Source: Streptomyces clavuligerus
GTDB taxonomy: Bacteria > Actinomycetota > Actinomycetes > Streptomycetales > Streptomycetaceae
NCBI RefSeq assembly: GCF_005519465.1
Contig: NZ_CP027858.1
Coordinates: forward strand, 6,063,001-6,127,000
Direction: 5' to 3'
DNA length: 64,000 bases
The translations under genes were made by a program, and so were the position numbers. The notes under the pieces are model-generated. The model ran no database searches and had not been told where the DNA came from. It saw nothing but the letters and a program-made list of their open reading frames with translations. Below, piece by piece: positions 14,818 through 63,830 of this stretch (position 1 is the stretch's first letter; each line of letters begins with the position of its first letter).

Positions 14818-14851
14818 AACGTCAAGATTCGCGGCTGGAGGAAGGTTTAGG
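14818..14851 (-). promoter_or_regulatory. Candidate SARP box and -10 before the ABC exporter operon
   Basis: Read on the - strand, CCTAAAC-CTTC-CTCCAGC has the 11-bp period, followed after 9-10 bases by TGACGTT as -10 (around 14818-14824). The heptamers match the others less well, so this is the weakest member of the set. Confidence 0.4.
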
Positions 14852-14921
14852 CAATTCCGTCTCAGGGAAAAGACGTAGATCACGCCAGGCGGCATGAGAG
14901 ATTCCGCCACCTCGGGCGGGG

Positions 14922-14954
14922 CCCCTGCGGGCCCGGTACCCGGGCCCGCAGGGG
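14922..14954. terminator. Strong hairpin between ABC promoter region and oxidoreductase stop
   Basis: A perfect 15-bp stem CCCCTGCGGGCCCGG pairs with its complement across a TAC loop. TTTTCTT follows on the + strand. It lies directly after the Gfo/Idh stop codon and probably ends that transcript. Confidence 0.75.
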
Positions 14955-14959
14955 TTTTC

Positions 14960-16441
14960 TTACTCCGAAGGTTTGTCCGAATCCATACCTGCACGGGGCT
15001 TGCGCCATTCGCCCCGGGTGAAGTCGGGCACCGGCAGCGGCGCCCCCTGGGCCCGTAGCGAGGCGTGGCTCAGCGGTACCGGCGCGGTCCAGGTGGCGGC
15101 GTCGTACACGTCGAAGTCCGGGACCAGGCCCAGCCGCATCGACTGCATCAGCCGGAAGACCATGATGTAGTCCATGCCGCCGTGGCCGCCGGGCGGGTTG
15201 GCGTGCTCCTTCCACAGCCAGTGGTCCCACTGCGCGTAGCGGGAGAAGTCGCCCCAGCGGTGGTCGGTGTGGTCGGGCTCGACATAGATCCGCGCCGGGT
15301 AGTCCTCGAACACGCCCTTCGTACCGCCGAGGCTGTTGATCCGGCTGTAGGGGTGGGGCGTGGACACATCGTGCTCCAGCCGGATGATCCGCCCCTTCTC
15401 GGTACGGAGCATGCTCACCGTCCGGTCCGCCCCGATGTACGTCTCCTTCCAGCTCGGGTCGCCGGGCGGCATATGGGCCTCCCGGTACTCGGCCAGCCCC
15501 AGCGCCGGGGTGCCGAAGCTGGCGATCGACACCACCCGGTCGCCCCGGTTCACGTCCATGTAGTTGGCGACCGGCCCGAAGCCGTGGTTGGGGTAGAGGT
15601 CGCCGCGGAGCCGGGTGTGCCACAGCCGCCGCCACGGGCCCTCGTAGTAGTCCGGCGAGAACATCAGCTCGCGCAGATCGTGGTTGTACGCGCCCGCCCC
15701 GTGCAGCAGTTCGCCGAAGAGCCCGGCGTGCGCCATCCGCAGCACCCGCATCTCGTTCCGGCCGTAACAGCAGTTCTCCAACTGCATGCAGTGCCGCCGG
15801 GTGCGCTCCGAGAGGTCGACCAGCGCCCACAGCTCGTCCAGGCGCATCGCGACCGGGCACTCCACGCCGACGTGCTTGCCGTTCAGCATCGCCGCCCGTG
15901 CCTGGGCGAAATGCTGCTCCCAGGGGGTGGCCACATAGACGAAGTCCAGATCGCCCCGGGCGCACAGATTCTCGTAGTCGTCCTCGTCCTTGGTGTAGAG
16001 CGCGGGCGCGGGCTGCCCGGCGGCGACCACCTTGGCGGCGGCGCTCTCGGCCTTGGCCCGGACCGGGTCGCAGAGGGCGACCACCCGCACCCCGGGCTGG
16101 ACGAGAAAGAGATCGATCATGCTGCCGCCCCGGTTGCCCAGGCCGATGATCCCGACCCGGACGGTGGAACGGCGCTGGAAGGGGACGCCCGCCATGGTGC
16201 GGCCCTTGCGGGGCGGGGCGGCGGCCGTGGCCTGGGCCTCCGTCGTCCCCGCGGGCGCCGCCGCGGCGGGCCCGGTCCCCAGGGCGCCGAGCGCGAGCGA
16301 CGCACCGGCCACCCCGGTCGTGGTCCGCAGCACCGTACGGCGGCTCGGCGCCGGGGAGTCGCCACCGGGGCCGGGGCCGGGGCCGGCGGAGCGGCCGGGG
16401 GGACCGGACGGGTCGGAGCCGGGTGTCACTGCGTCGTTCAT
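14960..16441 (-). CDS. Tat-exported Gfo/Idh/MocA-family oxidoreductase
   Basis: A 493-residue NAD(P)-dependent oxidoreductase, probably acting on a sugar or sugar-like substrate outside the membrane. The N-terminus ([12 protein letters not shown]) leads to a Tat motif [14 protein letters not shown] and a hydrophobic stretch ending AAAAP. The Rossmann motif [15 protein letters not shown] follows, then [10 protein letters not shown] and a C-terminal domain with [16 protein letters not shown] segments. The start ATG 16441 has GGGAGG upstream. The gene is monocistronic, with paired direct repeats about 100-130 bp upstream and no SARP-like box, so it may not belong to the metabolite regulon. Bacterial relatives with Tat signals often act on polysaccharide-derived sugars. 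Confidence 0.88.
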
Positions 16442-16538
16442 CGAGCCTCCCACGAGAGCAGCTGATGGTGTGCGCCTGCCGGTTGTCATGACCTCGTGGA
16501 ACCCTGATCGTTGCGACACCTGGTGCGCAAGAGGCGTG

Positions 16539-16573
16539 TTTGGACTCTTGCGTACGAGTCTTTGGATTCTTGC
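16539..16573. promoter_or_regulatory. Direct repeats upstream of the Gfo/Idh gene
   Basis: TTTGGACTCTTGC (16539-16551) and TTTGGATTCTTGC (16561-16573) are direct repeats with a 22-bp period, two helical turns. The stretch between contains GACTC and GAGTC arms. A further related CAAGAG lies at 16528. This looks like the operator of an unidentified regulator. Confidence 0.5.
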
Positions 16574-16716: not shown

Positions 16717-18951
16717 CTACAGAGAGGCCGGGGTCCGCTCACGCGTGTCCGTGTTCCCGTCGTTTCCGGTGTTCCCGGTGTTCCCGGCGGGGACGGCCGC
16801 CAGGACCGGCGCGGCCTCCTCCTTCCGCTCGGGGAAGACCGCCCGGTGCAGCCTGCGCAGCGGGGCGGGGGCCCACCAGTTGGCCGCGCCGAGCAGCGCC
16901 ATCAGCGAGGGCACCAGCAGCGCCCGGACGATCGTCGCGTCGACCAGCACCGCGAACGCCGCGCCGAGCCCCAGCTCCTGGATGAACACCAGCCGCGAGG
17001 CCGCCAGCGCGCCCACCGGCACACAGAACAGCACCGCCGCCGAGGTCACGATGGAACCGGTGCGGGACAGCCCCTGCGCGACGGCCTCCCGCTCGCTCAG
17101 CCCCTGCGCGCGCGCCTCCTTGATCCGGCTGAGCAGGAACACGTTGTAGTCCGTCGACAGACCGAAGGCGAGCGCGAAGACCAGCAGCGGAGTGGTGGCC
17201 TCCAGACCGCTCTGCGCGCTGAAACCGAGGTTGCCGTCCTGGAAGACCCAGACCAGGAAGCCGAACGCGGCACCCGTGGAGAGCGTGTTCATCACCAGCG
17301 CCATCAGCGGCAGCACGATCGCGCCGGAGAACGCGAACAGCAGCAGCAGGGTGACACCGGCCAGGATGGCCGCCGCGAGCGGCAGCTTGTCGCCGATGCT
17401 CTCCTCCTGCGCCAGATAGTCCGCCGTCGTCCCGGTGAAGTTCGCGGTGTACGGGGCGGTCAGCTCCCGCACCTTCTCCACGGCGTCCTGCGCGGGGTCG
17501 TCCAGCGGGTTGCCCGCGGGAACGGCGTCGATCTCCCAGTGCCGCCCGTCCAGTTCGAACGGCGCGCCCACGGACTCGATGCCGGGCACGTCCTCGATCT
17601 TCCGCGCGTAGTCGGCCAGCCGGGCGGCGTCCGGCGTGCCGTCGGTGGTGAGCACGATCTGGAGCGGCGCGGTCCCGGGGTCCTCGAAGTCCCTGGCCAG
17701 ATCGGCGGCCACCCGGCCCGCGCTGGTCTCCTGCGGCAGCAGGGACGGGTCGACACCGGTGAAGCGCACCCCGGCCAGCGGGGAGGCGATGAGCAGCAGC
17801 ACACCCGTCGCGATCACCGCGAACAGGCCGGGACGGCGCATCACCCCGGAGGCCATCCGGCGCCAGCGGCCCTCGGTCGCCGCCGAGGTGCCCGTGGCGC
17901 GCTGCCAGCGCCGCGGCGCCAGCGCGTTGATTTTATTCCCCAGCACCGCCAGCAGGGCGGGCAGCCCCACCAGGGCGAACAGCGCCGCGGAGAGCACGGT
18001 GATCACACCGGCGATGCCCATGGAACGCAGATACGGATGCGGGAACGCGGTCAGCGCCGCCAGCGCGGCGGCCACCGTGAGCGCGCTGAACAGCACCGTA
18101 CGGCCCGCCGTCGCGACCGTCTGGCGCACCGCCTCACCCCGGCCGCGGCCCGCCGCGACCTCCTCCCGGAACCGGGAGACGATCAGCAGCCCGAAGTCGA
18201 TGGAGAGCCCCAGCCCCAGCGCGAACGCCAGGCTCATCGCCCCCGCGGACACCGTCATGAACTCGGTGGTCAGCCGCAGCCCCGCCATCGTCAGCAGCAG
18301 CGAGACGATGCCGCCGATCAGCGGCACGAACGCCGCCACCAGCCCCCGGAAGACCAGGAACAGCACCACCAGGACGATCGGGAACGCGATCATCTCCGCG
18401 TTGCTGACGTCCTCGTCGGAGATCTGCGCGACCTGCACATGCCCCGGCGTCGAGCCACCGAGCGAGGTGCTCTCCCGCAGCAGCGGGCTGTCCTCGATCG
18501 CCTTCTGCAACGCCTCCTCGGCGTCGGTGGCCTGCTTGTCGGAGATGCTGGTCACGGCGCCGACCACGATGGTGCTGCGGCCGTCGCGGGAGACCAGCGC
18601 GGCCCCGGCCTCCGGCGAGGAGGCGTCGACGACCTGCTTGACCTCGGGGCGCGAGCGCAGCAGATCCCGGGCCGCCGCGACCTCGTCCGGGACGGCCTCG
18701 CCCGCAGTGACCTTCTCATCGGTGCGCACCAGCAGCACATAGCCCTGCTGGGAGTCGATCCCGGTGGCACGGGAGATGGTCTCCCGCGCGGCGACATTGC
18801 CGCCCGCCGGATCGTCGTAGTCGGAGAGTCCGTTGGTGAGCTTCCCCGACACACTCCCGCCGTAGGCCGTGGCCAGCACGGTGACCACGAGCGCCAGTAA
18901 CAGGACGGCGATTCGTCGGCGGTGGAGGGCCGAGCCCAGAGCGGAGAACAT
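16717..18951 (-). CDS. MMPL/RND-family transporter 1
   Basis: A 744-residue, about 12-helix transporter of the MMPL (mycobacterial membrane protein large) family, which exports lipids or lipophilic metabolites using the proton gradient. It has two repeats of one helix, a large external loop and five helices. Motifs GLGLSIDFGLLIVSRFREE and FGLSTDYNVFLLSRIKEA carry the conserved Asp-Tyr/Phe pair in helix 4 and 10. The C-terminus has a tandem Asn-Thr-Gly tract (GNTGNTGNDGNT). The start is ATG 18951. Residue 18 is encoded by TTA (18898-18900), a bldA-dependent codon. A SARP-like box lies 166 bp upstream. It probably exports a product of the locus. Confidence 0.9.
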   Translation of the reverse strand: MFSALGSALHRRRIAVLLLALVVTVLATAYGGSVSGKLTNGLSDYDDPAGGNVAARETISRATGIDSQQGYVLLVRTDEKVTAGEAVPDEVAAARDLLRSRPEVKQVVDASSPEAGAALVSRDGRSTIVVGAVTSISDKQATDAEEALQKAIEDSPLLRESTSLGGSTPGHVQVAQISDEDVSNAEMIAFPIVLVVLFLVFRGLVAAFVPLIGGIVSLLLTMAGLRLTTEFMTVSAGAMSLAFALGLGLSIDFGLLIVSRFREEVAAGRGRGEAVRQTVATAGRTVLFSALTVAAALAALTAFPHPYLRSMGIAGVITVLSAALFALVGLPALLAVLGNKINALAPRRWQRATGTSAATEGRWRRMASGVMRRPGLFAVIATGVLLLIASPLAGVRFTGVDPSLLPQETSAGRVAADLARDFEDPGTAPLQIVLTTDGTPDAARLADYARKIEDVPGIESVGAPFELDGRHWEIDAVPAGNPLDDPAQDAVEKVRELTAPYTANFTGTTADYLAQEESIGDKLPLAAAILAGVTLLLLFAFSGAIVLPLMALVMNTLSTGAAFGFLVWVFQDGNLGFSAQSGLEATTPLLVFALAFGLSTDYNVFLLSRIKEARAQGLSEREAVAQGLSRTGSIVTSAAVLFCVPVGALAASRLVFIQELGLGAAFAVLVDATIVRALLVPSLMALLGAANWWAPAPLRRLHRAVFPERKEEAAPVLAAVPAGNTGNTGNDGNTDTRERTPASL

Positions 18952-19101: not shown

Positions 19102-19134
19102 ATGGTCGGCCCGCGCGCTGAAGCCCCGCTGGAG
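19102..19134 (-). promoter_or_regulatory. SARP-type box and -10 for MMPL transporter 1
   Basis: On the - strand: CTCCAGC-GGGG-CTTCAGC (19134-19117), nine bases, then GACCAT (19107-19102) as -10. The heptamer period is exactly 11. Confidence 0.6.
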
Positions 19135-19166
19135 GGAGCGTGGGGCCGCCGGGCGTGATCCCCGCG

Positions 19167-19799: not shown

Positions 19800-19832
19800 T
19801 GCAAGGGCAGCTTTAGGCCGGGGCCGGACGAT
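19800..19832 (+). promoter_or_regulatory. SARP-type box and -10 for the FAD oxidoreductase
   Basis: TGCAAGG-GCAG-CTTTAGG (19800-19817), nine bases, then GACGAT (19827-19832). The transcript start would fall near 19840, giving a short leader to ATG 19869. Confidence 0.65.
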
Positions 19833-19868: not shown

Positions 19869-21128
19869 ATGACAGCAGAGCTGACCGCACAGGTTTGCGT
19901 GGTCGGAGGAGGGCCTGCCGGGCTCACGCTCGCCCTGGAGCTGGCCAAACGCTCCGTGTCGGTGGTGGTCCTGGAGCAGAGCGGGCACTTCAACCGGTCG
20001 TTCCGCGGCGAGTCGGTCTCCCCCGACTCGGTGTGGCTCCTGGACCGGCTCGGTCTCCTCGACCGGCTGGAGGGCGAGTACGCCCAGATGCACCGGATGG
20101 AGATCGTCGACGCCGGTCGCACGGTGCTGCGCACCGACTTCTCCGACTTCGACTATCCGCAGCCCTACCCGGTGGAACTGCCGCAGCCCGCGCTGCTCTC
20201 CGCGCTCGCCGCCGCGGCGGGGGAGTACCCCGGCTTCACCCTGCGCCAGGGCGCGACGGCGATCGGCCTGCTGCGGGAGGGCGGCGAGAACGGCCCCGTG
20301 ACCGGGGTGCGCGCCCGCACCCCCGAGGGCGAGCTGACCGTGCGCGCCGAGCTGACCGTCGCCGCCGACGGGCGCTTCAGCAAGATCCGTGAGATGTCCG
20401 GACTCCCCTACGAGAAACTGCCGCTGGACCGCGACGTCATCTGGCTGCGGCTGCCGTTCCCGCCCGAGTGGGACTTCAACACCTACCGCATCCGCATCCG
20501 GGGCGGCGAGCACGGCCTCTTCATCCCCACCCACCCCGACAGCGTCCGGGTGGGCCTCAACATCCCCAAGGGCGGGCTGCGCGATCTGCGCGCCCAGGGC
20601 CTGACCGCCCTCCACCAGCGGCTCGACCGGCTGGCGCCCGAGCTGTCCGACTCCGTGCGCACCGTCGTGGACAGTTGGTCCGAGACCTCCATGCTGGACA
20701 TCTTCACCACCGTCGTGCCCCGGTGGTCCCGGCCCGGCCTGGTGCTGATGGGCGACGCCGCCCACACCCTCACCCCGATCCTCGGACAGGGCGTCAACCA
20801 CGCCATCATCGACGCGGTCACCCTCGCCCCCCTCGTCGGCGACGCGCTCGCCGCGGGCGGCGGGGAGCGGCTGCTCGGCGCGGGCGAGGAGTTCCAGCGG
20901 GTCCGCGAGGGCGCGGTGCGCCTCTCCCGCGCCCTCCAGCTCCGCCAGGAGCGGCTGTTCGCCCTCGACGGCCCGGCCGGCGGGGCCTTCCGCCGCTCCC
21001 TGTACCGGGTCGTCGGCAGCAGCCACGCGCTCCAGCGGCGGGTGCTGGCCCGTGCCTACTTCCAGGTCCAGCGGCCCGGTCCGATCGTCGCGCGGAAGGT
21101 GTCCGCCCGGCCGGTCTCCCGCGCCTGA
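19869..21128 (+). CDS. FAD-dependent oxidoreductase/monooxygenase (UbiH-like)
   Basis: A 419-residue flavoprotein. The N-terminal Rossmann motif is CVVGGGPAGLTLALELAKR, a second flavin motif is VLMGDAAHTLTPILGQGVNHA, and the middle VAADGRFSKIREMSG matches the DG motif. This is the class A flavin monooxygenase/dehydrogenase group that hydroxylates, epoxidises or oxidises small aromatic or lipid-like substrates. I prefer ATG 19869, about ten bases after GGAGAGG, to GTG 19842, which sits close to the expected transcription start. A SARP-like box lies 37-69 bp upstream. It is convergent with the P450, separated by a 20-bp stem terminator. It is probably a tailoring enzyme. Confidence 0.88.
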   Translation: MTAELTAQVCVVGGGPAGLTLALELAKRSVSVVVLEQSGHFNRSFRGESVSPDSVWLLDRLGLLDRLEGEYAQMHRMEIVDAGRTVLRTDFSDFDYPQPYPVELPQPALLSALAAAAGEYPGFTLRQGATAIGLLREGGENGPVTGVRARTPEGELTVRAELTVAADGRFSKIREMSGLPYEKLPLDRDVIWLRLPFPPEWDFNTYRIRIRGGEHGLFIPTHPDSVRVGLNIPKGGLRDLRAQGLTALHQRLDRLAPELSDSVRTVVDSWSETSMLDIFTTVVPRWSRPGLVLMGDAAHTLTPILGQGVNHAIIDAVTLAPLVGDALAAGGGERLLGAGEEFQRVREGAVRLSRALQLRQERLFALDGPAGGAFRRSLYRVVGSSHALQRRVLARAYFQVQRPGPIVARKVSARPVSRA

Positions 21129-22512: not shown

Positions 22513-22545
22513 AGCGTCCCAGGACCGGCTAGCGCAGGGGTGAAG
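22513..22545 (-). promoter_or_regulatory. SARP-type box and -10 for the P450
   Basis: On the - strand: CTTCACC-CCTG-CGCTAGC (22545-22528), nine bases, then GACGCT (22518-22513). The -10 is identical to that of the SMP-30-like gene at 50600. Confidence 0.65.
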
Positions 22546-22590
22546 CAGCGGTGGAGAGCGCCCGTGCCCCGCACCGGGGCGCACACGGAC

Positions 22591-22650: not shown

Positions 22651-23067
22651 TCAGCGCTGCCAGCCCTCCCGTGTCCGCAGTCCGAAGCCCGCGGCGCGGC
22701 CGAGCGCGATGGTGGTCAGCCAGGCCATCCCGAAGGTGAAGGGGGCCGCGATGTCCTCGGGTTTGTCCCCCAGGAAGGAGAAGACGACCATGACGGCGAA
22801 CGGGATCGGGGCGCGGTTGAGCAGATTGTGCAGCGGCACGGCCGCCGCCGGGAGCTGACCGGGCCCGTGCTCCCCGGCCCGCCCCAGCAGCCGGGGCAGC
22901 AGCGGCAGCGCGGCCCCCACGAGGGCGGACGGGATCACCCAGCCCTGGTGCTTCAGCACCTCGAAGATGTCCCAGGCCAGCAGGAGGGCGCCGAGCGTGC
23001 CCCAGGCGAAACGCACCCCCGGGGAGGCCGAACTCCGGACGGCGCCACTCTCTTCGGTCATCACCAT
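22651..23067 (-). CDS. Small integral membrane protein of unknown function
   Basis: A 138-residue protein with about four hydrophobic segments: FAWGTLGALLLAWDIFEVL, VIPSALVGAALPLLPRLL, PIPFAVMVVFSFLG and FGMAWLTTIALGRAAGF. GAGGGGAAG precedes the ATG at 23067. No family is recognised. It has its own SARP-like promoter directly upstream, in the gap after the ketosynthase-like gene. It therefore belongs to the metabolite regulon and could help with transport, resistance or anchoring. Nothing shows a catalytic role. Confidence 0.65.
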   Translation of the reverse strand: MVMTEESGAVRSSASPGVRFAWGTLGALLLAWDIFEVLKHQGWVIPSALVGAALPLLPRLLGRAGEHGPGQLPAAAVPLHNLLNRAPIPFAVMVVFSFLGDKPEDIAAPFTFGMAWLTTIALGRAAGFGLRTREGWQR

Positions 23068-23154: not shown

Positions 23155-23187
23155 AGTATCCGGCACCGCGCTGGAGCGCCGCTGGAG
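23155..23187 (-). promoter_or_regulatory. SARP-type box and -10 for the membrane protein gene
   Basis: On the - strand: CTCCAGC-GGCG-CTCCAGC (23187-23170), with two identical heptamers, nine bases, then GATACT (23160-23155). This is one of the clearest copies of the motif. Confidence 0.75.
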
Positions 23188-24378: not shown

Positions 24379-26007
24379 TCAGGCGGGGCCGACGGCCTGT
24401 TCGCGCAGCGCCGACACCACGCGCCACAGCGAGGCGGGGGTGGCGAACGTGGCCGCCACCAGCTCGGAGTCCGGGATCGCGATCCCGTACGCCGACTCCA
24501 CCCGCACCAGCACCTCGACCATCGCCAGCGAGTCGAGCCCGGCGGCCTTGAGACTGGTCTGAGAGGTCAGCGGACCCTTGGCCCGCAGCCGCGGCAGCAC
24601 CTCGTGCAGCAGCGCCTCGTACTCCTCGTCCCACGGCGGGGTCGCGGCGGTGTCGGCGCCCGCCTCGGCGGTGATCTCGGTCATGGCGGTGAACTCCTCC
24701 GTACGGTGTACCGGTGCGGGTTGGATGTGCTGGCGCCGCAGCGCGAGCCGGGTCGCGGAGACGGTCTCGCCCCCGTCCACGAGGACTTCGGCGGGGGCCG
24801 GGTGGCCGAGGAAGCCCAGCAGGCTGGCCGAGAGTCCGTACGCCCCCACGTTGGGGAAGACGAGCAGATCGCCCGCCGCCACCCCGGGCAGCTCGGCCGC
24901 GCGCGCCAGGATGTCCGCCGGGGTGCACAGCGGACCGGCCAGGGTCACCGTGCCCGGTTCCCCGTCCGTCTCCCCGTCCGTCTTCCCGTCCGTCTCCGCG
25001 GCCCCCGCGCCCTGGTCGGGAAGCACCGGCGGAACGAGCGGCTGCGCGGAGAGCGGCAGCAGCCGCCCCAGGCCCGAGAGGCCGCCCAGATGGTTGATCC
25101 CGGAGTCCAGGACCGCGTAGTCGCTGCCCCGGCTGTGCTTGACGTCGGTGACGGTGACCACCAGTCGTCCGCTGTCGCCCACCAGATAGCGGCCGGACTC
25201 GAACGCGACCACCGGCTCACCGTCCCGCCAGCCCGGCAGATGCTCGTCCAGCACGGTGCTCAGCGCGGTCCGCAGCCCCCGGTAGACGGGCCGCTCGCCC
25301 GGTGTCGCGTACGGGGCCGAGAAGCCCCCGCCCAGGTCCAGCAGGTGCAGCGGGATGCCCAGCTCCTCCCGGAGCTGCGCCGCCGTGCGCACGCTCTGTG
25401 CCAGCTCGGCCAGGAGACCCGCCTCGTCACGGGCGTTGGTGAGCGGGAAGAAGTGCATCCCGACGATCCGGGTGCCCTGCACCAGCAGCCGCGCCCGCTG
25501 CTCCGTCAGCCCGTCGAGGTCGAAGCCGAACTGCGAGGGCCCGCCGGTCATCCGCAGCCCCGCCTGGCCCGGTGCCCCCGCCGCGTTGATCCGCAGCACA
25601 CAGTCGGCGGTGACGCCCTGCGCCGCCGCCGCGGCCCCGATGCGCTCCAGATCGCCGAAGGACTCGGCGGAGAAGGTCCGCATCCCCGCCGCGACGGCCT
25701 CGTCCAGTTCGGCCCGTACCTTGCCGGGGCCCGAGTACATCAGCTCGGCCGCCGGGTGGCCCGCCTCCAGGGCGGCGGCCAGCTCCCCGCGCGAGGTGAC
25801 CTCGGCGCGGGCGCCGCCCCGGCGCAGCTCGGCGACGAGCCCCGGGTGCGGATTGGCCTTGAGCGAGTAGTAGATCCGGCTGGGCTGGGGCAGCGCCGCC
25901 CGCAGATCCTCCAGGGCGGCCCGTACCCGCGCCAGGTCGTAGATGTACAGCGGACTGCCGTACCGCTCGACCAGCAGCCGTTCGGCCGCGGTCCTCTCAG
26001 TCGTCAT
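24379..26007 (-). CDS. PLP-dependent aminoacyl-ACP decarboxylase fused to an acyl carrier protein
   Basis: A 542-residue open frame joining two normally separate proteins. Residues 1 to about 425 are a fold-type III PLP decarboxylase (ornithine/diaminopimelate family): K50 in YYSLKANPH binds PLP, LDLGGGFSAPY binds phosphate, GPLCTPADIL carries the active-site Cys, and NVGAYGLSASLLGF closes the site. A short linker (about 430-455) leads to an ACP with GLDSLAMVEVL; Ser493 is the phosphopantetheine site. The ACP part keeps its own ATG at 24684, ten bases after CGGAGGAG, so free ACP may also be made. The start 26007 overlaps the ligase stop by 11 bases. By analogy with BtrK/BtrI and VinO/VinL it would decarboxylate an amino acid held on the carrier. 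Confidence 0.88.
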   Translation of the reverse strand: MTTERTAAERLLVERYGSPLYIYDLARVRAALEDLRAALPQPSRIYYSLKANPHPGLVAELRRGGARAEVTSRGELAAALEAGHPAAELMYSGPGKVRAELDEAVAAGMRTFSAESFGDLERIGAAAAAQGVTADCVLRINAAGAPGQAGLRMTGGPSQFGFDLDGLTEQRARLLVQGTRIVGMHFFPLTNARDEAGLLAELAQSVRTAAQLREELGIPLHLLDLGGGFSAPYATPGERPVYRGLRTALSTVLDEHLPGWRDGEPVVAFESGRYLVGDSGRLVVTVTDVKHSRGSDYAVLDSGINHLGGLSGLGRLLPLSAQPLVPPVLPDQGAGAAETDGKTDGETDGEPGTVTLAGPLCTPADILARAAELPGVAAGDLLVFPNVGAYGLSASLLGFLGHPAPAEVLVDGGETVSATRLALRRQHIQPAPVHRTEEFTAMTEITAEAGADTAATPPWDEEYEALLHEVLPRLRAKGPLTSQTSLKAAGLDSLAMVEVLVRVESAYGIAIPDSELVAATFATPASLWRVVSALREQAVGPA

Positions 26008-50632: not shown

Positions 50633-50708
50633 CACGGCTGTACAGAGCTGTTGACGACGGTTCCTGGTGGGGCTGCCCGGGGCTCCCGGGGCGCGATCCG
50701 CACCGGCC

Positions 50709-52725: not shown

Positions 52726-54070
<1,345 letters not shown>

Positions 54071-54137
54071 CCCGCGTCCACCCGATCCCGCTCCGTCCCG
54101 CCGTTCCGCCACCCCGCGAGCGCCCCAGGAGAACCCC

Positions 54138-54464
54138 ATGGCGTATGTGATCGCCCAGCCCTGCGTCGACGTCAAGGACCGGGCCTGTATCGAGGAGTGC
54201 CCCGTCGACTGCATCTACGAGGGGCCCCGCAAGCTCTACATCCACCCCGACGAGTGCGTGGACTGCGGAGCCTGTGAACCGGTCTGCCCGGTGGAGGCCA
54301 TCTTCTACGAGGACGAGGTACCGGTGGAGTGGAGCGGGTACCGCACGGCGGACACCGAGATCTTCGCCCCGCTCGGCTCGCCCGCCGGGGCCGGGGCGAC
54401 CGGGCCGCTCGCCGAGGACCACCCCCTGGTGGCGGCGCGCCCGGCCCTGGAGCCCCAGACCTGA
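54138..54464 (+). CDS. 7Fe ferredoxin
   Basis: A 108-residue ferredoxin of the FdxA type. The N-terminal cluster ligands lie in QPCVDVKDRACIEECPVDCI, the second cluster in CVDCGACEPVCPVEAI, giving one 3Fe-4S and one 4Fe-4S. A 40-residue Ala/Gly/Pro-rich tail follows the Fe-S domain. It follows korB by 67 bases with AGGAGA before ATG 54138. It should be the electron acceptor of KorAB, and may pass electrons to the P450 at 21225. Confidence 0.92.
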   Translation: MAYVIAQPCVDVKDRACIEECPVDCIYEGPRKLYIHPDECVDCGACEPVCPVEAIFYEDEVPVEWSGYRTADTEIFAPLGSPAGAGATGPLAEDHPLVAARPALEPQT

Positions 54465-54739: not shown

Positions 54740-54783
54740 GTCCAGTAGCGGTCCAGAATCGGTCCAGAGCGAATGCAGCGGTT
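54740..54783 (+). promoter_or_regulatory. Triple SARP-type box and -10 before AfsA homologue 2 and the large SARP
   Basis: Three copies of GTCCAG(T/A) start at 54740, 54751 and 54762, each followed by four bases, an exact 11-bp period. Nine bases after the last comes GCGGTT (54778-54783) as a weak -10. The transcript would carry AfsA 2 and the large SARP regulator, suggesting feedback. Confidence 0.65.
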
Positions 54784-55013
54784 CGAGAGAGTGTGGTGGC
54801 GGTGGCGGATTCCCGCCACCGCTGTTGCTCTTTCCGTCCCGGCGGCACGCACCGTTCGGGCCATCGCCCGCCCGAGCCCCGGGCCTTGCCGGGGGACCGC
54901 GTTCCCCACAGCGCCGGGCGTGGGCGGACAGCGGTTCGCGGGGAGCCCGCGCCGCACGATCGACGATCGTTCCCGTCCCCGGCAGGACCGGCGGACCCAT
55001 CGAAGGAGCTGGT

Positions 55014-56284: not shown

Positions 56285-59080
56285 ATGCGCTTCCGGGTAC
56301 TGGGGCCGGTGAGCATGTCTCCCCGCACCCCGTCCGCCGCCAAACCCCGCGCACTGCTCGCCACCCTGCTGGTCCGGGCCGGTGAGGTCGTCCCCGCGCA
56401 CAGCCTCATCGACGAACTCTGGGGCACCGAGCCGCCGCGCACCGCCACCACCACGCTCCAGGTCTATGTCTCCCAGCTACGGAAGATCCTCGCCGAGGAC
56501 GAGCACGGCGCCGACAGACCCCCCGAGGGCGCCGAACCCGCCGGCGGGCTGCTGCTGACCCGCGCGCCCGGGTATCTGCTCCAGATCCCCGACCAGGAGA
56601 ACGCGTTCGACCTGCCGTGCTTCGAACGGCTGCGGAACGACGGCCGCGCCGCCCACCAGGAACGCGACTTCGCCCGGGCGTCCCGGCTGCTGCACGAGGC
56701 ACTGGCGCTCTGGTCCGGCCCCGCGCTCTCCGGCATCCCGCACGGCGTGCGCCTCGAATCCGCCGCGATCCGCCTGGACGAGCTGCGCATGGAGGTCCTG
56801 GAACAGCGGATCGTCGCCGATCTCCGCCTCGGCCACCACCAGGAACTCGCCGGGGAACTGCTGGCCCTCGCCAACGAGCATCCGCTGCGGGAGACCCTGC
56901 ACGGGCATCTCATGGTGGCCCTCTACCGCACCGGCCGGGGCTCCGACGCCCTGCGGGTCTACGGCAGGCTCCGGCACTCCCTCGTCGAGGAGCTGGGGGT
57001 CGAACCCGGCCCCGGCCTCGCCCGGCTCCACGAGCGCGTCCTGCGCCGCGACCCCGCCCTGGACTGGCGGCCCCCGCGGCCCCCGGCCGGAACCACCGCC
57101 ACCGACCGCCCCGGGCGCGGCCCGTCCGCACCCGCGCCCGAGGAGGCCCGCCGCCCGGTCCCCACCCCGCCGGTGCTCCCCGCCGAAGCCCCCGGATTCG
57201 TCGGGCGGCACGAGGAACTCGCCCATGGGGAACGGGTGCTGCGCGGCCGGAACGGACAGCCGCCCGTCCGCGTCCTCGCCGTCTCCGGACGCGCCGGGGC
57301 CGGGAAGTCGGCACTGGCGCTGCGGCTCGCCCACCGCATGGCGGAATCCTTTCCCGACGGCCGGGCCCTGGTGCGGTTGCGCGGACCGCACGGCCGTCCG
57401 CTGACCACCGCCCAGGTGGGGGCCGCGGTCCTGCGCCGGCTCTCCGGCGATGACTCCGGCGACCGGGGCACCACCCCCACAGACCCGGCCGAACTGGCCG
57501 AACGGATTCGGCAGGCCCTCCACGGCCGTCGGATTCTGCTCGTCCTCGACGATGTGGGGAGCGAGGAGCAGATCCGGCCACTGCTGCCGCCCACCGAGGG
57601 CAGCGCGGTCATCCTCACCGGCCGCCGCACCCCCGCCGCGCTGGACGGGGCCGAGCACCTCGTCCTCGACGCCGTACGCCCCGACGAGGCCGTCGAACTG
57701 CTGATGACGGCGGCGGGGGAGCGGATCGCCGACGACACCGCCGCCGCGGCGGAGATCGCCCGGCTCTGCGGCTACCTCCCGCTGGCGCTGCGCGTCGCCG
57801 CCGCGGCGCTGACCGCACGGCCGCACACCACCGCCGACGCCTTCGCGGAGCGGCTGCGCGACGAGCGCACCCGGCTCGGGGTGCTCCGCGAGGGCGATCT
57901 CGACCTCCGCTCCACCCTGCTGACCGGCTATCAGGAGGCCGGTCCCGCACAGCGGCGGGCGTTCAGGATGCTGACCCTCGCCCCCGCGCCGGACTTCGCC
58001 GGATGGACCGCCGCCGCCCTCCTCGGCAGCGGGGCGGGCGTCGCCGAGGAACTGACCGAGGAACTCGTCCGCGCCCATCTCCTGGAGGCCCGGCCGGGGG
58101 TCCGCACCCAGCGCTACGGCTTCCACTCGCTGCTGCGGGTGCTCGCCGTGGAGCTGCGCGAGGCCGAGTCGGCGACGGAGCCCGACGGCGAGACCACCCG
58201 CCGCGCCGTGGAACGGCTCTGCCGCGCCTATCTGACCCTCGCCCGCTACGCCGACGCCCGGCTCGCCCCCGGCCGCGACTGGCGCACCCGCACCGGGCCG
58301 GACGGCACCCACGGGGACCGGCGGGACGGCCCCGACGGGCCCACGGTCATCGGCGAGGGGACCCTGAGATGGTTCCAGGACGAGGCCGCCGGACTCGTCG
58401 AGGCCGTCCGCCAGGCCCACGCGGCCGGGCTCTGGCCGCTGGTGTGGGAACTCGCCGACAGCGCCACCGGCTACTTCCACGCCTGCGCCGCCTGGGACGA
58501 CTGGGAGGAGACCCACCGGCTGGCGCTGGACGCCTCGCTGCGCGCCCGGAACACGGCGGCGGAGGCGGTGGTGCGCCACTCCCTGGGCGGCCTCGCCTGG
58601 CAGCGCCGCGAGGCCCGTCGCGCGCTGGCCCACTTCATGGCCGCGCAGGCCTGCTTCGACCGGGTCAAGGACCGCATCGGCTCGGCCCGCTGCCGGATCG
58701 GGGTGGCCGACATCCTGCTCGGCCAGGGGCGGCTGGGGCCCGCCGCCCGCCGCTACGGCCGGGCACTCGCGCTGTGCACCGCCGGGCGGGACCTCTGGGG
58801 CGGCGTCGCCGCGCTCAACGGCCTCGCTCTCGTCAATCTGCGGCTCGGCCGGAGGGAGACCGCGATCGGCCAGCTCGCCCAGTGCCGCCGGGCGGCGGAG
58901 CGGCTGGGGGACCGCCGCTGGGCGGAGTACACCCGCCGTACGGAGGCCCGGGTGGCGGCGCCGTCCGTACGGCGTCCGCCGGCCCAGGCGGTCGAGGTCC
59001 GCCCCGGGATGTGGCTGATCGGCCCGCCGCCCCCGGCGGCCCGCCCGCTCCCGGGACCCGCGCCCGCGCTGGCGGGCTGA
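56285..59080 (+). CDS. Large SARP-NTPase-TPR transcriptional regulator (AfsR-like)
   Basis: A 931-residue regulator. Residues 1-95 form the OmpR-like DNA-binding domain (MRFRVLGPVSMSP, LIDELWGTEPPRTATTTLQV); about 110-260 the activation domain; about 300-600 an NB-ARC/AAA ATPase with Walker A VSGRAGAGKSALAL, Walker B RRILLVLDDVG and the GYLPLALRVAAAAL (GxP) motif; about 680-900 TPR-like helices. This is the AfsR layout, where ATP and protein partners gate DNA binding. It lies behind AfsA 2 under a triple SARP box, so it probably regulates itself. It and the short SARP at 34804 are the two candidates for reading the shared boxes. ATG 56285 follows GAGGAG. Confidence 0.93.
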   Translation: MRFRVLGPVSMSPRTPSAAKPRALLATLLVRAGEVVPAHSLIDELWGTEPPRTATTTLQVYVSQLRKILAEDEHGADRPPEGAEPAGGLLLTRAPGYLLQIPDQENAFDLPCFERLRNDGRAAHQERDFARASRLLHEALALWSGPALSGIPHGVRLESAAIRLDELRMEVLEQRIVADLRLGHHQELAGELLALANEHPLRETLHGHLMVALYRTGRGSDALRVYGRLRHSLVEELGVEPGPGLARLHERVLRRDPALDWRPPRPPAGTTATDRPGRGPSAPAPEEARRPVPTPPVLPAEAPGFVGRHEELAHGERVLRGRNGQPPVRVLAVSGRAGAGKSALALRLAHRMAESFPDGRALVRLRGPHGRPLTTAQVGAAVLRRLSGDDSGDRGTTPTDPAELAERIRQALHGRRILLVLDDVGSEEQIRPLLPPTEGSAVILTGRRTPAALDGAEHLVLDAVRPDEAVELLMTAAGERIADDTAAAAEIARLCGYLPLALRVAAAALTARPHTTADAFAERLRDERTRLGVLREGDLDLRSTLLTGYQEAGPAQRRAFRMLTLAPAPDFAGWTAAALLGSGAGVAEELTEELVRAHLLEARPGVRTQRYGFHSLLRVLAVELREAESATEPDGETTRRAVERLCRAYLTLARYADARLAPGRDWRTRTGPDGTHGDRRDGPDGPTVIGEGTLRWFQDEAAGLVEAVRQAHAAGLWPLVWELADSATGYFHACAAWDDWEETHRLALDASLRARNTAAEAVVRHSLGGLAWQRREARRALAHFMAAQACFDRVKDRIGSARCRIGVADILLGQGRLGPAARRYGRALALCTAGRDLWGGVAALNGLALVNLRLGRRETAIGQLAQCRRAAERLGDRRWAEYTRRTEARVAAPSVRRPPAQAVEVRPGMWLIGPPPPAARPLPGPAPALAG

Positions 59081-59119: not shown

Positions 59120-59171
59120 ACCACCGGCAGGTCATCGGCCTTTGTCAGTGCTGATACCTACAGTGGCCGAC

Positions 59172-59714
59172 ATGTCCGAACCGCTGCCCCCCTTCCCGTA
59201 CCACCCCGACCCCGTCGCCACCGGCGCGGTCGTACCCTCCGACGCCGTCTGCGCCCACTGCGGACGCGCGCGCGGCCATGTGTACGCCGGCCCGGTGTAC
59301 GCAGGGACGCCCGGCCTGAGCGGACGGCTGTGCCCGTGGTGCGTCGCGGACGGCAGCGCCGCGGCGGCGTACGAGGCCCACTTCACGAGCGGAGAAGTCC
59401 TCGGCGACGAGATCCCGTTCGACGTCCTGCTCGCCGTGGACACCCGGACCCCGTCCTTCACCGCCTGGCAGCAGACCGTCTGGTACGCCCACTGCGGCGA
59501 CGCGGCGGCCTTCCTCGGCGCGGCGGGCGCCGCCGAACTGGCCGCCTTCCCCGACGCCCTGCGGCTCCTGCGTGCCCAGGCCGACGCCTGGGGCTGGCCG
59601 GACGACCAGGTGGAGCACCACCTCGCAAGCCTCCACCGCGACGGCGACCCGACGGCCTACCTCTTCCGCTGCCGCCACTGCGCGACCCACCTGGCCTACG
59701 CGGACTTCGCCTGA
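59172..59714 (+). CDS. CbrC (UPF0167)-family protein
   Basis: A 180-residue cytoplasmic protein. The N-terminus LPPFPYHPDPVATGAVV and the Cys pairs in CAHCGRARGHVYAGPVY and LCPWCVADG, with CRHCATHLAYADFA at the C-terminus, match the CbrC/UPF0167 family, which in E. coli is linked to colicin E2 tolerance. Six cysteines in C-x2-C pairs suggest metal binding. I prefer ATG 59172 (MSEPLPP) over ATG 59142. It stands alone between the SARP terminator and the repeat tract; an immunity or stress role is possible but unproved. Confidence 0.8.
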   Translation: MSEPLPPFPYHPDPVATGAVVPSDAVCAHCGRARGHVYAGPVYAGTPGLSGRLCPWCVADGSAAAAYEAHFTSGEVLGDEIPFDVLLAVDTRTPSFTAWQQTVWYAHCGDAAAFLGAAGAAELAAFPDALRLLRAQADAWGWPDDQVEHHLASLHRDGDPTAYLFRCRHCATHLAYADFA

Positions 59715-59739
59715 CGGGCCGCCACCCGCGGCGCGGGGG

Positions 59740-60990
59740 ACGGGCGAACGCGGGCGTGGGCCCGCTCCACTCCGGTGCGGAGGCGGGTCGCCGTGCGCTG
59801 TTCCGGGTGCCCGGCCGTGCCACCGGTTGTCCGCGGGTGGCTCTTGCGGTCGTTCCCGCTGGGCGGCCGGTCCTGTCCCGGCCGGGTCTTCCCCGACGCG
59901 CGGGGCCGTGGAGGCCAGCCCGCGGCGCGGGGCCGGTTCGCGGGGATCTTCCCCGACGCGTGGGGAGCGGTCCGGTGGTCCGGATGGGCGGGTGGCCGGG
60001 TCAGCCTGCGGCGTCGAGGGCCGATACCGTCGGTTCGTCCCGTGGGGCGAACGCGGGCGTGGGCCCGGTGTGTTCGGTGCGGAGGCGGGTCGCGCAGCCG
60101 GTTGTCCGCGGGTGGCTCTTGTGGTCGTTCCCGCTGGGTGACCGGTCCCGTCCCGGCGGGTCTTCCCTGCCGTGCGGGCGTGGCCCGGCCCGGCGGACGC
60201 TGGGTCAGCCCGCGGTGCTGGGGGACGATACGGCTGGTTCGTCCCGGGGCGGACCTGGGCGCGAGCCCGGTGCAGGCGGTGCGGAGGCGGGCCGCCGTGG
60301 GCCGTTCCGGGTGCCTGGGCGCGCCACTCGTCGTACGCGGCGGCTGCTCCGGTTGTTCCCGCTGTGCGGGGTCCCGTCCCGGCGGATCTCCCCTGACGGG
60401 CGGGAGCTTGGTCTGGACCGGCGTCGGGGCGGACCTCCACGAGCCTGGTCCGGTGGCCGGTAGGAGCCGTTCGCGGGGCGGCCCGTCCCGTCCGCGCGGA
60501 TCGTCCCCGGCACGGGGGAGCGTCCTGGACAGCCCGGAGGCCCGGACCCGGCGGGGGTCGGGCCGGGCGGGGTCGTAGGGCGGCCTGCGGTGTTGGGGGC
60601 CGATACCGCTGGTTCGTCCCGTGGGGCGAACGCGGGCGTGGGCCCGGTGTGTTCGGTGTGGAGGCGGGTCGCCGTGGGGTGTTCCGGGTGCCTGGCCGTG
60701 TCACCGGTCCTCCGGGGGCCGGTTCTTCCGGGCGTTCCCGCTGGGTGGCTGGTCCTGTCCCGGCGGGTCTCTTCCGACGAGCCGGGCGCGGTCCGGATCG
60801 GTGGGCGGCTGGTTCGTCCCGTGGGACGGATGTGCGCGTGGGCCGGGCGTGTTCGGTGTGGAGGCGGGTCGCCGTGGGCCGTTCTGGGTGCCTGGCCGTG
60901 CCACTGGTTGTTCGCGGGCGTTCCCGCTGGGTGGCCGGTCCCGGCCCGGCGGTCTCCCCCCACGCGGGGGCGCGGGCCGGGCCGGGCGAG
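59740..60990. repeat. 1.25-kb degenerate tandem repeat tract
   Basis: Five copies of a block beginning GGAGGCGGGTCGCCG and continuing GTTCCGGGTGCC, GGCCGTG, CGTTCCCGCTGGG start at about 59779, 60081, 60283, 60660 and 60860. Copies 1, 2 and 4 are preceded by GCGAACGCGGGCGTGGGCCC. Intermediate spacing is near 200 or 300-380 bp. Several frames on both strands are open across it, but none has protein-like composition; the product would be Arg/Pro/Gly low complexity. It lies between convergent gene ends (CbrC-like and alpha/beta hydrolase), as does the other long tract at 32048. Origin and function are unknown. Confidence 0.65.
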
Positions 60991-61001
60991 GTTCGGCAGG
61001 G

Positions 61002-62012: not shown

Positions 62013-62015
62013 GGA

Positions 62016-62294
62016 TCAGACCTCCTGGCGGTCCGGGTCGTCGGTGCGGTGCGGGTCCGGAACGTGCGCTGCGGGGCCGGGGTCCGCACCGGAGCCCGCC
62101 GGGACGCCCCCGGAGCCGGAATCAGAAACGGAAACGGAAACGGAAACGGAATCGGCGGCCTCCGGCGGACCGGCGGCCGGGACGGAGAGGACCCCGGGGT
62201 CGATGCCCAGCGACGCGAGGGAGCGCCAGGGAAGGACGGTGCCGTGCGCCCCGGCACGGAGCCGGGCGCGGGGACGAGTGGTCGTAGGGGACAT
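62016..62294 (-). CDS. 92-residue small protein between two hydrolases
   Basis: ATG 62294 (MSPTTTRPRARL) lies behind AGAGGCGG. Residues 17-38 (HGTVLPWRSLASLGIDPGVL) form the only well-structured stretch; the middle is SVSVSVSVSDSGSG, encoded by a GGAAAC-type hexamer repeat near 62130. The tail is Asp/Pro/His-rich. No signal or membrane helix is seen. It could be a peptide precursor, a chaperone-like partner or a non-functional remnant. Tight placement in the operon (three bases before the next start) supports translation. Confidence 0.6.
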   Translation of the reverse strand: MSPTTTRPRARLRAGAHGTVLPWRSLASLGIDPGVLSVPAAGPPEAADSVSVSVSVSDSGSGGVPAGSGADPGPAAHVPDPHRTDDPDRQEV

Positions 62295-62419
62295 GGCAAC
62301 CGCCTCTCGGTCGCTGTGCAGGGGTGCGCCCGGACGGGCGCCGCCGGCCCTCACGGGCCGTGGACGGGCCGCGAGCGGCCCGGAGAGCGGTGGGGCGGAG
62401 CGGTGGCCGGGCCGATCGG

Positions 62420-63541
62420 TCAGACCGGCGGCAGCGGCCCGTCGGGCGAACCGTTCGCGGGCACCGCCACCGCGGACTCCACCGCCCGTACCGCGACGGG
62501 CCGCACCGGGCCCGGCTCCGCCGCGGCGGCGAACCGCGTCCGCAGCAGCGAGCGGACCAGCCAGGCCCGTACCGCCGTGAGATGCGCGGGGGAGCCGTGG
62601 ACGTCGTCGAACTCCTTGAACCGGGCCCGGGGGAGCGCCGCCGCCAGCAGCCGCGGGTCGCCCGCCGGGATGATCTCGTCCCGGGAGCTGACGACATATC
62701 CGACGGGGACGCGCACCGCGCCCAGGGTGTCGGGGCCGAGCGGAAAGCGCCGGAGCAGCAGCCGCAGCGCCTCCTCGTCCGCCGACCCGGTGAGCCTGCG
62801 CAGCGTCTCCACGGTGATGCCGGGGACCCGGGGCCACCACAGCGGGTCGGTGAAGAACCCCGCGACCGGCGCCCCGACGGTGTGGACCCCGCGGATACGG
62901 GGGTCGTCCGCCGCCGCCCGCAGCGCCATGTGGCCGCTGAAGCTGAGCCCGAGGACGCTGGTGCGGCGGACGTCGGCCCGCCGCTCCAGCCGGTTCAGCA
63001 GAAACGGCAGCAGCCGCCAGGAGTCGGGCCCGTAGCGCAGGGTGTTCTCGCCGACGCCGGGCATCTCGGTCGCGACGGCCGCGTAGCCGAGCCGGGCCAG
63101 CTTCGGCAGCAGCGGGGCCCACTGCTCCTTCACGCTGACGATGCCGCCCGAGACGACGACCAGCGGTCTGCGGCGGCGGACGTCGAGTCCGGCCGTCCAG
63201 CAGACGACGACGCCGTCCGGGTGGTCGAGGAGCAGCCGTCCGATGCCCCGGCGGCGGCGCCAGTCGTCGAAGGTCCGTACGCAGTTGGCCTGGGCCCTGG
63301 CCCGGACCTCGTCGCCGTGGTGGGGGAAACGGGCCAGCGCGTAGCGGCGGCAGGCGTCGAGCGGACGGCCCGCCGTGGCCAGCCGGTCGGCCTCGGCCGT
63401 CCAGACGCGGGCCCAGGAGGCGGGGTGACCCGGCTCGTCGTTGGTGATCCGGGGCAGGACCGCCGCCACCTGGCGTTCGGTGATGCCCTGGCCGCGGGCG
63501 TGCAGCCGGGCGAACTCCTTCAGCTCGTCGAGATGGTCCAT
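62420..63541 (-). CDS. FrsA-like alpha/beta-hydrolase with N-terminal helical cap
   Basis: A 373-residue hydrolase. The first 110 residues form a helical cap (VWTAEADRLATAGRPLDA, VRTFDDWRRRRG) as in FrsA and 2,6-dihydroxypseudooxynicotine hydrolase relatives. The nucleophile Ser is in LGLSFSGHMALRAA, the Asp in VVSSRDEIIP, the His in DDVHGSPAHLT. This group cleaves C-C or ester bonds of bulky acyl compounds. The start is ATG 63541 (MDHLDELKEF) after GGAAG. It heads the three-gene operon under a SARP-type promoter, so it is part of the locus. Confidence 0.87.
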   Translation of the reverse strand: MDHLDELKEFARLHARGQGITERQVAAVLPRITNDEPGHPASWARVWTAEADRLATAGRPLDACRRYALARFPHHGDEVRARAQANCVRTFDDWRRRRGIGRLLLDHPDGVVVCWTAGLDVRRRRPLVVVSGGIVSVKEQWAPLLPKLARLGYAAVATEMPGVGENTLRYGPDSWRLLPFLLNRLERRADVRRTSVLGLSFSGHMALRAAADDPRIRGVHTVGAPVAGFFTDPLWWPRVPGITVETLRRLTGSADEEALRLLLRRFPLGPDTLGAVRVPVGYVVSSRDEIIPAGDPRLLAAALPRARFKEFDDVHGSPAHLTAVRAWLVRSLLRTRFAAAAEPGPVRPVAVRAVESAVAVPANGSPDGPLPPV

Positions 63542-63797
63542 GACTTCCTCCGTCTCCCTCACCACCGAGGGCCCGTGCCAGGTGACTCGGCCCGGGGCCG
63601 TCCCGGGCGGGCGAAACGCGGATACGAACGCGGATACGGATGTCGATGCGGATGCGGAACGCGGATGCGCGGGGGCCGCGCTCGGGCCGCGCCGTGCGGA
63701 CGGACGCGGGGAGCCATCGGTCCGCGGGAGTGTGGGCGGGCGCCGTCTGCCGGGGTGGGGGAATGTGCCCCGGCGGAGCGCCCGCCCTGGACACCAC

Positions 63798-63830
63798 GGT
63801 GGCGGACGTCCCTTAAGGCACGCTTGGCGC
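63798..63830 (-). promoter_or_regulatory. SARP-type box and -10 for the right-hand hydrolase operon
   Basis: On the - strand: GCCAAGC-GTGC-CTTAAGG (63830-63813), nine bases, then CACCGT (63803-63798). The -35/-10 leader to ATG 63541 is about 250 bases and holds a GGATACGAACGC-type short repeat (63620-63660). Confidence 0.6.

Follow-up and report, generated by a model that had tools for sequence, protein, structure and literature searches.

The 64,000-nucleotide stretch of DNA analysed here (the window: bases 6063001-6127000 of the 6.75-Mb contig, C1, of Streptomyces clavuligerus, whose genome also has a second replicon of 1.80 Mb, 5 kb of which match two S. clavuligerus megaplasmids with 100% identity) raises the question whether a promoter element of fixed geometry, recurring across one gene cluster, marks the operons governed by Streptomyces antibiotic regulatory proteins (SARPs) encoded in that cluster. 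The element consists of a YTYHAGC-like heptamer, four bases, a second heptamer (an 11-bp period), nine bases and a (G/T/C)ANNNT hexamer in the place of a -10 element, and it occurs at 12 promoters. On the basis of leave-one-out (LOO) scores, a scan of spacer geometries in relatives, footprints of conservation and a putative operator of the global SARP AfsR that shows this geometry too, we consider it very probable that these 7-4-7-9-6 elements are SARP-dependent promoters and constitute a locus-wide regulon of the cluster's own SARPs. A sequence-only reading of the window had proposed such a regulon; its sites, their geometry, their conservation and their local enrichment are supported, and SARP binding and the transcription starts are still predictions.

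The sites were discovered with a first heptamer scan followed by a matrix built from seven of the clearest sites, which pointed to the promoters listed by the sequence-only reading and also to that of the exporter gene MFS2. With this matrix the hydrolase and AfsA2 promoters scored low (3.6 and 1.8), and it took the sequences of relatives for them to be accepted. Of the 24 heptamers of the 12 sites, 18 begin with C, 18 have T at position 2, 21 have A at position 5 and 22 have G at position 6 (the other 2 have C there); in all 12 hexamers the second base is A and the sixth is T. The geometry first claimed (7+4 period, nine bases, ANNNT-like -10) was borne out by these 12 two-heptamer sites and by its success in relatives, and every gene on the earlier list except an ABC exporter is preceded by a site.

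With at most two mismatches, the pattern YTYHAGC-N4-YTYHAGC-N9-KANNNT matched the window seven times versus 0.05 expected, a number reached by none of 100 shuffles. An inner spacer of 5 bp instead of 4 gave no match in the window, and an outer spacer of 10 bp gave one, the copy before the ABC exporter. Similarly, strict heptamers in the intergenic DNA of the window formed three to four pairs at a distance of 11 bp versus at most one at other distances; this histogram was weak in relatives because the heptamers are degenerate, and matrix tests were used there instead. Genome-wide, the pattern (at most two mismatches) gave 36 matches compared to 39 for a reversed control, seven of the 36 and all three perfect matches falling in the window, which makes up 0.75% of the genome. 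The motif is locally dense and shows no global enrichment.

As the pattern was derived from window sites, LOO scoring and the relatives provide the less circular tests. Scored with a matrix of the other eleven, the twelve sites reached 13.3-24.2, and scores as good arose 0 to 6 times in a 440-kb background from this genome (once per 73 to more than 440 kb), with the caveat that the choice of the twelve, by eye and matrix, preceded the test. This comparison is conservative, because the background held L082, a stretch with two promoters of the same cluster. With the full position weight matrix (PWM), 225 regions upstream of operon heads in a 400-kb background included 1 that scored at least 13. 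In the window, 12 sites precede 27 operon heads, a count made with a matrix trained on these sites, yet all twelve reach at least 13.3 in the LOO test.

We then turned to related clusters. Using the cluster's decarboxylase-acyl carrier protein (ACP) fusion as query, we found 12 Streptomyces loci in named genomes, including S. scabiei 87.22 and S. jumonjinensis; in 392 genomes of the genus, 54 matched at 1e-100 (own genome counted), and stretches were taken from nine others above 570 bits. Fifteen relatives furnished 113 orthologous upstream regions, after exclusion of the duplicate loci L006 and L011 and of orthologs with less than 50% identity, an alignment beginning only after residue 60 or fewer than 250 bases upstream. 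With a matrix blind to the promoter under test, 103 of the 113 beat all 40 of their Markov resamples. When 169 spacer geometries were compared, the (4,9) geometry was best in 76 of the 113, no other winning more than four, and its mean score was 16.9 versus 10.6 for the next best. Pairwise identity anchored on the sites (scores of at least 12, nine representatives) was 0.81 and 0.87 for the heptamers and 0.80 for the -10, versus 0.53 and 0.60 for the spacers and 0.39 and 0.53 for the flanks. Since anchoring profits from the picking of best sites, an unanchored MAFFT alignment was run, and it gave 0.74 for the core, 0.56 for the spacers and 0.44 for the rest, with the motif window in the top 7 for 9 of 12 promoters. 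Gene order from MMPL1 to the hydrolases is preserved in G296 and G094, and in the rearranged clusters of G244 and G302 the sites precede the moved operons, the FkbH site of G244 lying ~0.9 kb upstream.

The individual sites are all predicted promoters, with starts expected ~7 bases past the hexamer, and are given in window positions, with the fraction of orthologous upstream regions that beat all 40 resamples following each LOO score. The MMPL1 promoter (gene 16717-18951) lies at 19102-19134 on the minus strand (CTCCAGC n4 CTTCAGC n9 GACCAT, predicted start ~19095; LOO 23.2 with no background match as good in 440 kb, 12/12). A second heptamer pair, whose window copy is without the final -10 T, is found at 19184 (minus strand), ~45-50 bp upstream, and relatives have such pairs too (e.g. 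L008:17041 and 17087), so tandem promoters may be conserved. The FAD oxidoreductase promoter (gene 19899-21128) lies at 19800-19832 on the plus strand (TGCAAGG n4 CTTTAGG n9 GACGAT, start ~19839; LOO 17.4, 13/14), followed on the minus strand by those of the P450 gene (21225-22460; site 22513-22545, start ~22506; LOO 15.3, 11/15), with a third in-register heptamer, CTCCACC, at 22550-22556, and of the small membrane protein (22651-23067; site 23155-23187, CTCCAGC n4 CTCCAGC n9 GATACT, start ~23148; LOO 15.0, 8/10). Also on the minus strand are the promoter of the ketosynthase/ligase/decarboxylase-ACP operon (28725-28757, TTTTAGC n4 CCAAAGC n9 GAGCAT, start ~28718; LOO 18.4, 13/14) and that of MFS1 (28860-30230; site 30280-30312, CTCTAGC n4 CTTCAGC n9 TACGGT, start ~30273; LOO 24.2, 9/9). 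The divergent MFS2 gene (30548-32047) has the newly added site at 30356-30388 on the plus strand (CGCAAGG n4 CTACAGG n9 GAGGGT, start ~30395; 12/13), which has the lowest LOO score, 13.3, with 6 background matches as good in 440 kb; its orthologs show CGCAAGT n4 CTTCAGC n9 GAGGGT and similar sites. The thioesterase promoter (gene 33540-34331; site 34532-34564, minus strand, GTTTGGC n4 CTTAAGC n9 GAATCT, start ~34525; LOO 15.5, 13/13) ranked 1/298 in the MAFFT alignment.

In the right half of the window, the promoter of the HAD hydrolase/FAD monooxygenase operon (46493 to 44158) is at 46606-46638 on the minus strand (TTTTGCC n4 CGCAAGG n9 TACCGT, start ~46599; LOO 15.6, 3/4); the AfsA-like gene AfsA1, separated by a 337-bp gap, may or may not be part of this operon. 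Among the three successful orthologs that of G264 scores low, with its site at -330, and the miss, G296, has CTTTGCC n4 CACAAGC n9 TAGCGT farther upstream. The SMP-30-like gene (49403-50449) has a site at 50600-50632 on the minus strand with a third heptamer, GTACAGC, at 50637-50643 (start ~50593; LOO 15.2, 4/4), and this promoter probably also serves MMPL2. The korA-like/korB-like/ferredoxin operon (50803-54464) is preceded by a plus-strand site at 50709-50741 (CTTTGGT n4 CTCAAGG n9 TACCGT, start ~50748; LOO 18.1, 3/3), and the hydrolase genes (63541 down) by a minus-strand site at 63796-63828 (GCCAAGC n4 CTTAAGG n9 CACCGT, start ~63789; LOO 14.6, 2/2 relatives).

The predicted promoter of AfsA2 and the large SARP gene at 56285 is of a different build, an array of four heptamers with an 11-bp period at 54740-54794 on the plus strand (GTCCAGT n4 GTCCAGA n4 GTCCAGA n4 ATGCAGC n9 GAGTGT; predicted start ~54801), with AfsA2 probably starting at ATG 55014 and not at 55299. 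This site was accepted because of its in-register repeats, not because of its matrix score. In the window and nine relatives, with the heptamer register set by eye, in-register heptamers end nine bases before a (G/C)ANNNT hexamer, and their letters differ. They number four to five in 8 of the 10 (the window and seven relatives) and about three in G244 and G302; the two-heptamer matrix stays below 10 in the former eight and reaches 16.9 and 18.4 in G244 and G302. Three TNCAG words with an 11-bp period matched three times in the window (once at the SMP-30-like promoter and twice at AfsA2) and never in 100 shuffles. There was no such match across 620 kb of stretches from the own genome, and all 11 matches in 13 stretches of seven relatives are at SMP-30-like or AfsA2 promoters. 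A third upstream heptamer is conserved at the P450 and SMP-30-like promoters (positive in 11/12 and 5/5); in the average of 112 sites an additional upstream heptamer shows up as no more than a slight bump, with scattered positives elsewhere, e.g. 2/3 at the hydrolase promoter.

Which proteins could act on these sites? Two SARP genes had been placed within the set, and their domains confirm this: SARP1, a small SARP of 278 aa (34804-35640, minus strand), and SARP2, a large SARP of 931 aa (56285-59080, plus strand) with NB-ARC and TPR domains downstream of the heptamer array, both have a Trans_reg_C-type DNA-binding domain followed by BTAD, and both are candidate activators. Over its SARP domain SARP1 is homologous to the AfsR chain 8hvr (E 2.6e-40). 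Its own upstream region has no heptamer site, the best scores being 3.0 in the window and at most 10.7 in relatives. An attempt to name one SARP by co-occurrence was abandoned: the first 70 kb of G244 showed SARP1 alone, and a genome-wide search found SARP2 farther out. Both SARPs share the helix pattern LQxYxxQLR and align Q where AfsR has R92, a residue that contacts a base according to excerpts of PMC10936776; Q at this place would suit a specificity common to both SARPs and unlike that of AfsR.

The AfsR promoter complex at afsS of S. coelicolor (PDB 8hvr/8jke/8k60) offers a frame for the cluster sites. There, two protomers sit on two 11-bp direct repeats from -40 to -19 with sigma region 4 riding on them, on a scaffold DNA (-50 to -7) that contains the box and the -10, as given in the same excerpts (PMC10936776). 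Placed by us on this frame without any shift, the cluster heptamers fall at -39/-33 and -28/-22 and the hexamer at -12/-7. The distance to the -10 is compatible, and the weak CANNNT-type -10 of afsS (CACTGT) resembles those of the cluster. By analogy, the two heptamers would take the place of a -35 element, and two SARP protomers, bound to them next to each other, would hand RNA polymerase with the housekeeping sigma factor onto the weak (G/T/C)ANNNT hexamer, as for AfsR; in this way SARP1 and/or SARP2 would jointly activate the operons for biosynthesis and export and the AfsA2-SARP2 operon. Binding, activation, the acting SARP, the transcription starts and the hexamers as real -10 elements are what we infer from the sites, and a differential RNA-seq study of S. 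clavuligerus ATCC 27064 (SRP188290), mapped by its authors to CP027858/CP027859, has been published (PMC7738537, seen in excerpt).

Several observations weigh against a regulon of the cluster's own SARPs. The heptamers are degenerate (position 4 may be C, T or A), 10 of the 113 upstream regions failed to beat all 40 resamples, the resample test is blind to whether the top-scoring position lies where it should, and some relatives are close kin, so that the cases are not independent. In the MAFFT alignment the motif windows of HAD (rank 131/228), the FAD oxidoreductase (40/228) and MFS2 (160/228) lie outside the top 7, the rest of the FAD oxidoreductase upstream region being well conserved as well (0.61). 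The two-heptamer matrix misses the AfsA2 array, with a score of only 8.7. Beyond the cluster, the genome-wide matches do not rise above the control, which would make the motif by itself a poor predictor there. Finally, each of the two SARPs was matched in 9/9 cluster-bearing genomes searched, and since both are conserved neither can be named as the activator.

The alternative that survives best, though we regard it as improbable, is that the sites serve AfsR itself or another of the genome's SARPs rather than the cluster's own. The genome has 26 BTAD matches, of which three share 74-77% identity with the SARP domain of AfsR. The AfsR homolog that comes closest (77% identity) is followed downstream by a putative AfsR operator, GTTCATC n4 GTTTATG n9 AATGCT, with the same geometry as the cluster sites and another heptamer. 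Moreover, the afsS -35 given in excerpts of PMC10936776, TTCAGC, is close to the cluster heptamer CTTCAGC. AfsR repeats, however, read CGTT(T/C)ATCGNN (PMC10972967, excerpts), and the corresponding heptamer GTTYATC is not what the cluster has, where position 6 is mostly G and position 1 mostly C. The putative operator scores 6.9 with the cluster matrix, under all twelve sites and also under the AfsA2 array, and the best pattern matches concentrate in the cluster. AfsR is also a global regulator, whereas the cluster sites make up over a dozen promoters of one cluster, and SARP1 and SARP2, the two SARPs of this genome compared at that position, differ from AfsR by the Q at R92.

Far less probable still is that the sites are PHO boxes of PhoP, another binder of 11-bp direct repeats. 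These boxes do share the 11-bp period and the 7+4 layout, but their consensus, GTTCACC, has a C at position 6, which just 2/24 window heptamers show, 22/24 having G. A fixed distance of nine bases to the -10 and concentration in one cluster also fit a phosphate regulon poorly, even though PhoP is reported to bind over the AfsR site at afsS (excerpts of PMC10972967). Equally improbable is chance likeness in AT-richer promoter DNA combined with general ancestry of the orthologous clusters: upstream DNA would be richer than coding DNA in TAGC- and CAGC-like words, the related clusters do share ancestry and the choice of sites, by eye and matrix, came ahead of the tests, but LOO scoring was made against the same genome, the resamples were beaten with a promoter-blind matrix, spacers diverge more than heptamers, and neither the seven window matches versus 0.05 expected nor the single background operon head in 225 is accounted for.

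The motif had been said to define cluster borders at 11 and 64 kb, which proved wrong on both sides. On the left, no site was accepted in the window before 19.1 kb, and the copy described as looser before the ABC exporter (14818-14851) was rejected as a member: its outer spacing is one base off, and 12 of 100 shuffles give such a match. G094 and G187, which retain the ABC and GFO/IDH genes (not found in the G296 stretch), have no like site before the ABC ortholog, the best upstream scores being 8.1 in G094, 11.2 in G187 and 9.1 in the window, all in unrelated sequences (in G187 TTCTGCC n4 CATAAGG n9 TTGCCT, without the -10 A); in L008 the exporter gene is present as a fragment only. Three stretches to the left, L081, L092 and L093 (60 kb), gave no match of at least 13.

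On the right, two good sites lie past the end of the window. In L082 (C1:6127001-6147000) genes run to ~79.3 kb in window-equivalent positions and encode a phosphopantetheinyl transferase (PPTase)-like protein, an E2-like acyltransferase, an ACP, a ketoacyl-ACP synthase III (KASIII), a ketosynthase-acyltransferase-ACP (KS-AT-ACP) protein, a further ACP, two acyl-CoA dehydrogenases, a fatty acyl-AMP ligase (FAAL) and FkbH, a set syntenic in G296 and G094. Predicted promoters, both on the minus strand, precede FAAL (76452-76484, CGCAAGA n4 CTTTAGA n9 GACCAT, start ~C1:6139445) and FkbH (79452-79484, CGCAAGA n4 CTTAAGC n9 CAGGAT, start ~C1:6142445), and the ortholog promoters in G296 and G094 also have sites, so that accepted sites span 19.1-79.5 kb. 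Farther right, L087-L091 (100 kb) gave a single match of at least 13, of 14.1 in L091. All 29 pattern matches outside the window were scored (genome-wide, scoring covered pattern matches, and the matrix scan the fetched stretches), and four reached at least 20. C2:1275273 and C1:5139081 lie inside called coding frames. The other two are outside called genes: C1:4873289 (L084:4322, minus strand), which precedes a VTT-domain gene by 158 bp, and C1:33373 (L083:5406, minus strand), ~0.9 kb before a LysR gene and 0.27 kb from a divergent dehydrogenase gene; both could be real sites and may serve as targets, whether of the same SARP or of a different one.

The interior of the cluster from 34.8 to 42.6 kb (SARP1, the TOMM set and a two-component pair) has no heptamer site, the best scores staying below 11 in the window and its orthologs. 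Between 35945 and 42621 this block holds the genes for a TOMM precursor (35945), a YcaO cyclodehydratase (36376), a ThcOx-like dehydrogenase (39057), a histidine kinase (40724) and a response regulator (41992). Within it, 35945-40541 (plus strand) carries the TOMM precursor (TIGR04351), the YcaO protein with a leader-binding domain and the ThcOx-like dehydrogenase, which may represent a ribosomally synthesised and post-translationally modified peptide pathway nested in, or hybrid with, a tetronate-type cluster. The SARP1-TOMM intergenic region (35641-35944) has elements that by eye look shared across many relatives, namely ACAGTGTTC, a CATGTGAATTCGTCATG-like inverted repeat and a CACTGGG box, possible targets of the adjacent two-component system or of a butyrolactone receptor. 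A two-tier SARP loop ordered by heptamer number is conceivable but rather doubtful: SARP1, whose own promoter is without sites, would start it and the AfsA2-SARP2 array would be a signal-coupled latch, with the TOMM and two-component genes outside.

The gene content (called with a simple codon-usage caller, domains from Pfam) looks suited to the making of an antibiotic-like compound. Between 16.7 and 63.5 kb it begins with an MMPL exporter, a cyclase-like protein, the FAD oxidoreductase, the P450 and the small membrane protein, followed by the KASIII/ligase/decarboxylase-ACP/KASIII operon (28638 down to 23295, minus strand), two MFS exporters, the thioesterase and the small SARP. The TOMM precursor, YcaO and ThcOx-like proteins, histidine kinase, response regulator and an AfsA-like protein occupy the middle; next come the FAD monooxygenase, HAD hydrolase, MMPL2, SMP-30-like protein and a kor-like two-subunit oxidoreductase with ferredoxin, and then, to 63.5 kb, a second AfsA-like protein, the large SARP, a UPF0167 protein and alpha/beta hydrolases. 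No counterpart of the UPF0167 gene (59163-59714) was found in the synteny comparison with G296 and G094. Two high-G+C gaps of 1.3-1.5 kb (32048-33539 and 59715-61001) contain no gene by codon usage, and three long frames in them had no Pfam match. The decarboxylase-ACP (24379-26007, minus strand) is a pyridoxal-dependent decarboxylase of the Orn/DAP/Arg type fused to an ACP, with an AMP ligase and two KASIII-like enzymes as neighbours, and this build suggests a carrier-bound amino acid as its substrate for decarboxylation.

At the level of domains the gene set is tetronate-type, as five glycerate-utilisation genes are recognisable by domain only: FkbH (TIGR01686), KASIII, a small ACP, a 2-oxoacid_dh acyltransferase and alpha/beta hydrolases. 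Tetronate clusters such as that of tetromadurin (mad7, 8, 16, 17, 18; excerpts of PMC7489565) likewise have an FkbH-like protein, an ACP, a FabH-like protein, an acetyltransferase and a dehydratase-type hydrolase. In contrast to the tetromadurin cluster, gene calling between 9.8 and 79.3 kb gave no large modular polyketide synthase; in its stead the cluster has the FAAL, the two acyl-CoA dehydrogenases, the one KS-AT-ACP, the ligase/decarboxylase-ACP pair and the TOMM set.

As to other cluster SARPs, the heptamers of CcaR, ActII-ORF4 and DnrI presumably differ in sequence from those described here. Like the cluster's, the sites of these and other such SARPs are heptameric direct repeats overlapping the -35, two or three per promoter, with reported spacers of 4-15 nucleotides (PMC10972967, excerpts); the cluster here has 15 predicted promoters over ~60 kb. 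PimR, a SARP-LAL protein, binds cooperatively at pimM to three heptamers with 4-bp spacers, comparable to the three- to five-heptamer arrays seen here, but with the consensus CGGCAAG, one target gene and an operator clear of the -35 (PMC5930380, excerpts). In the literature covered, which left out most subscription journals, we found no description of this cluster or its regulon; excerpts of PMC6448028, which deals with clusters of S. clavuligerus, did not show the regulon, and CTTCAGC occurs in those of PMC5930380 and PMC7489565 in primers.

That SARPs act on heptamer repeats across a cluster is already known, and the regulon is a new example, not a new mechanism. If it is real, a single code, read from the promoters, predicts which genes belong to this S. 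clavuligerus cluster, where its operons begin and where their transcription starts, and it does the same for related clusters of other Streptomyces species, S. scabiei 87.22 and S. jumonjinensis among them. A rational attempt to wake the cluster would then be to express SARP1 or SARP2. The putative AfsR operator and the cluster sites suggest that one genome uses the same geometry with different heptamers, which would offer a clean case for studying how SARPs discriminate between their sites.

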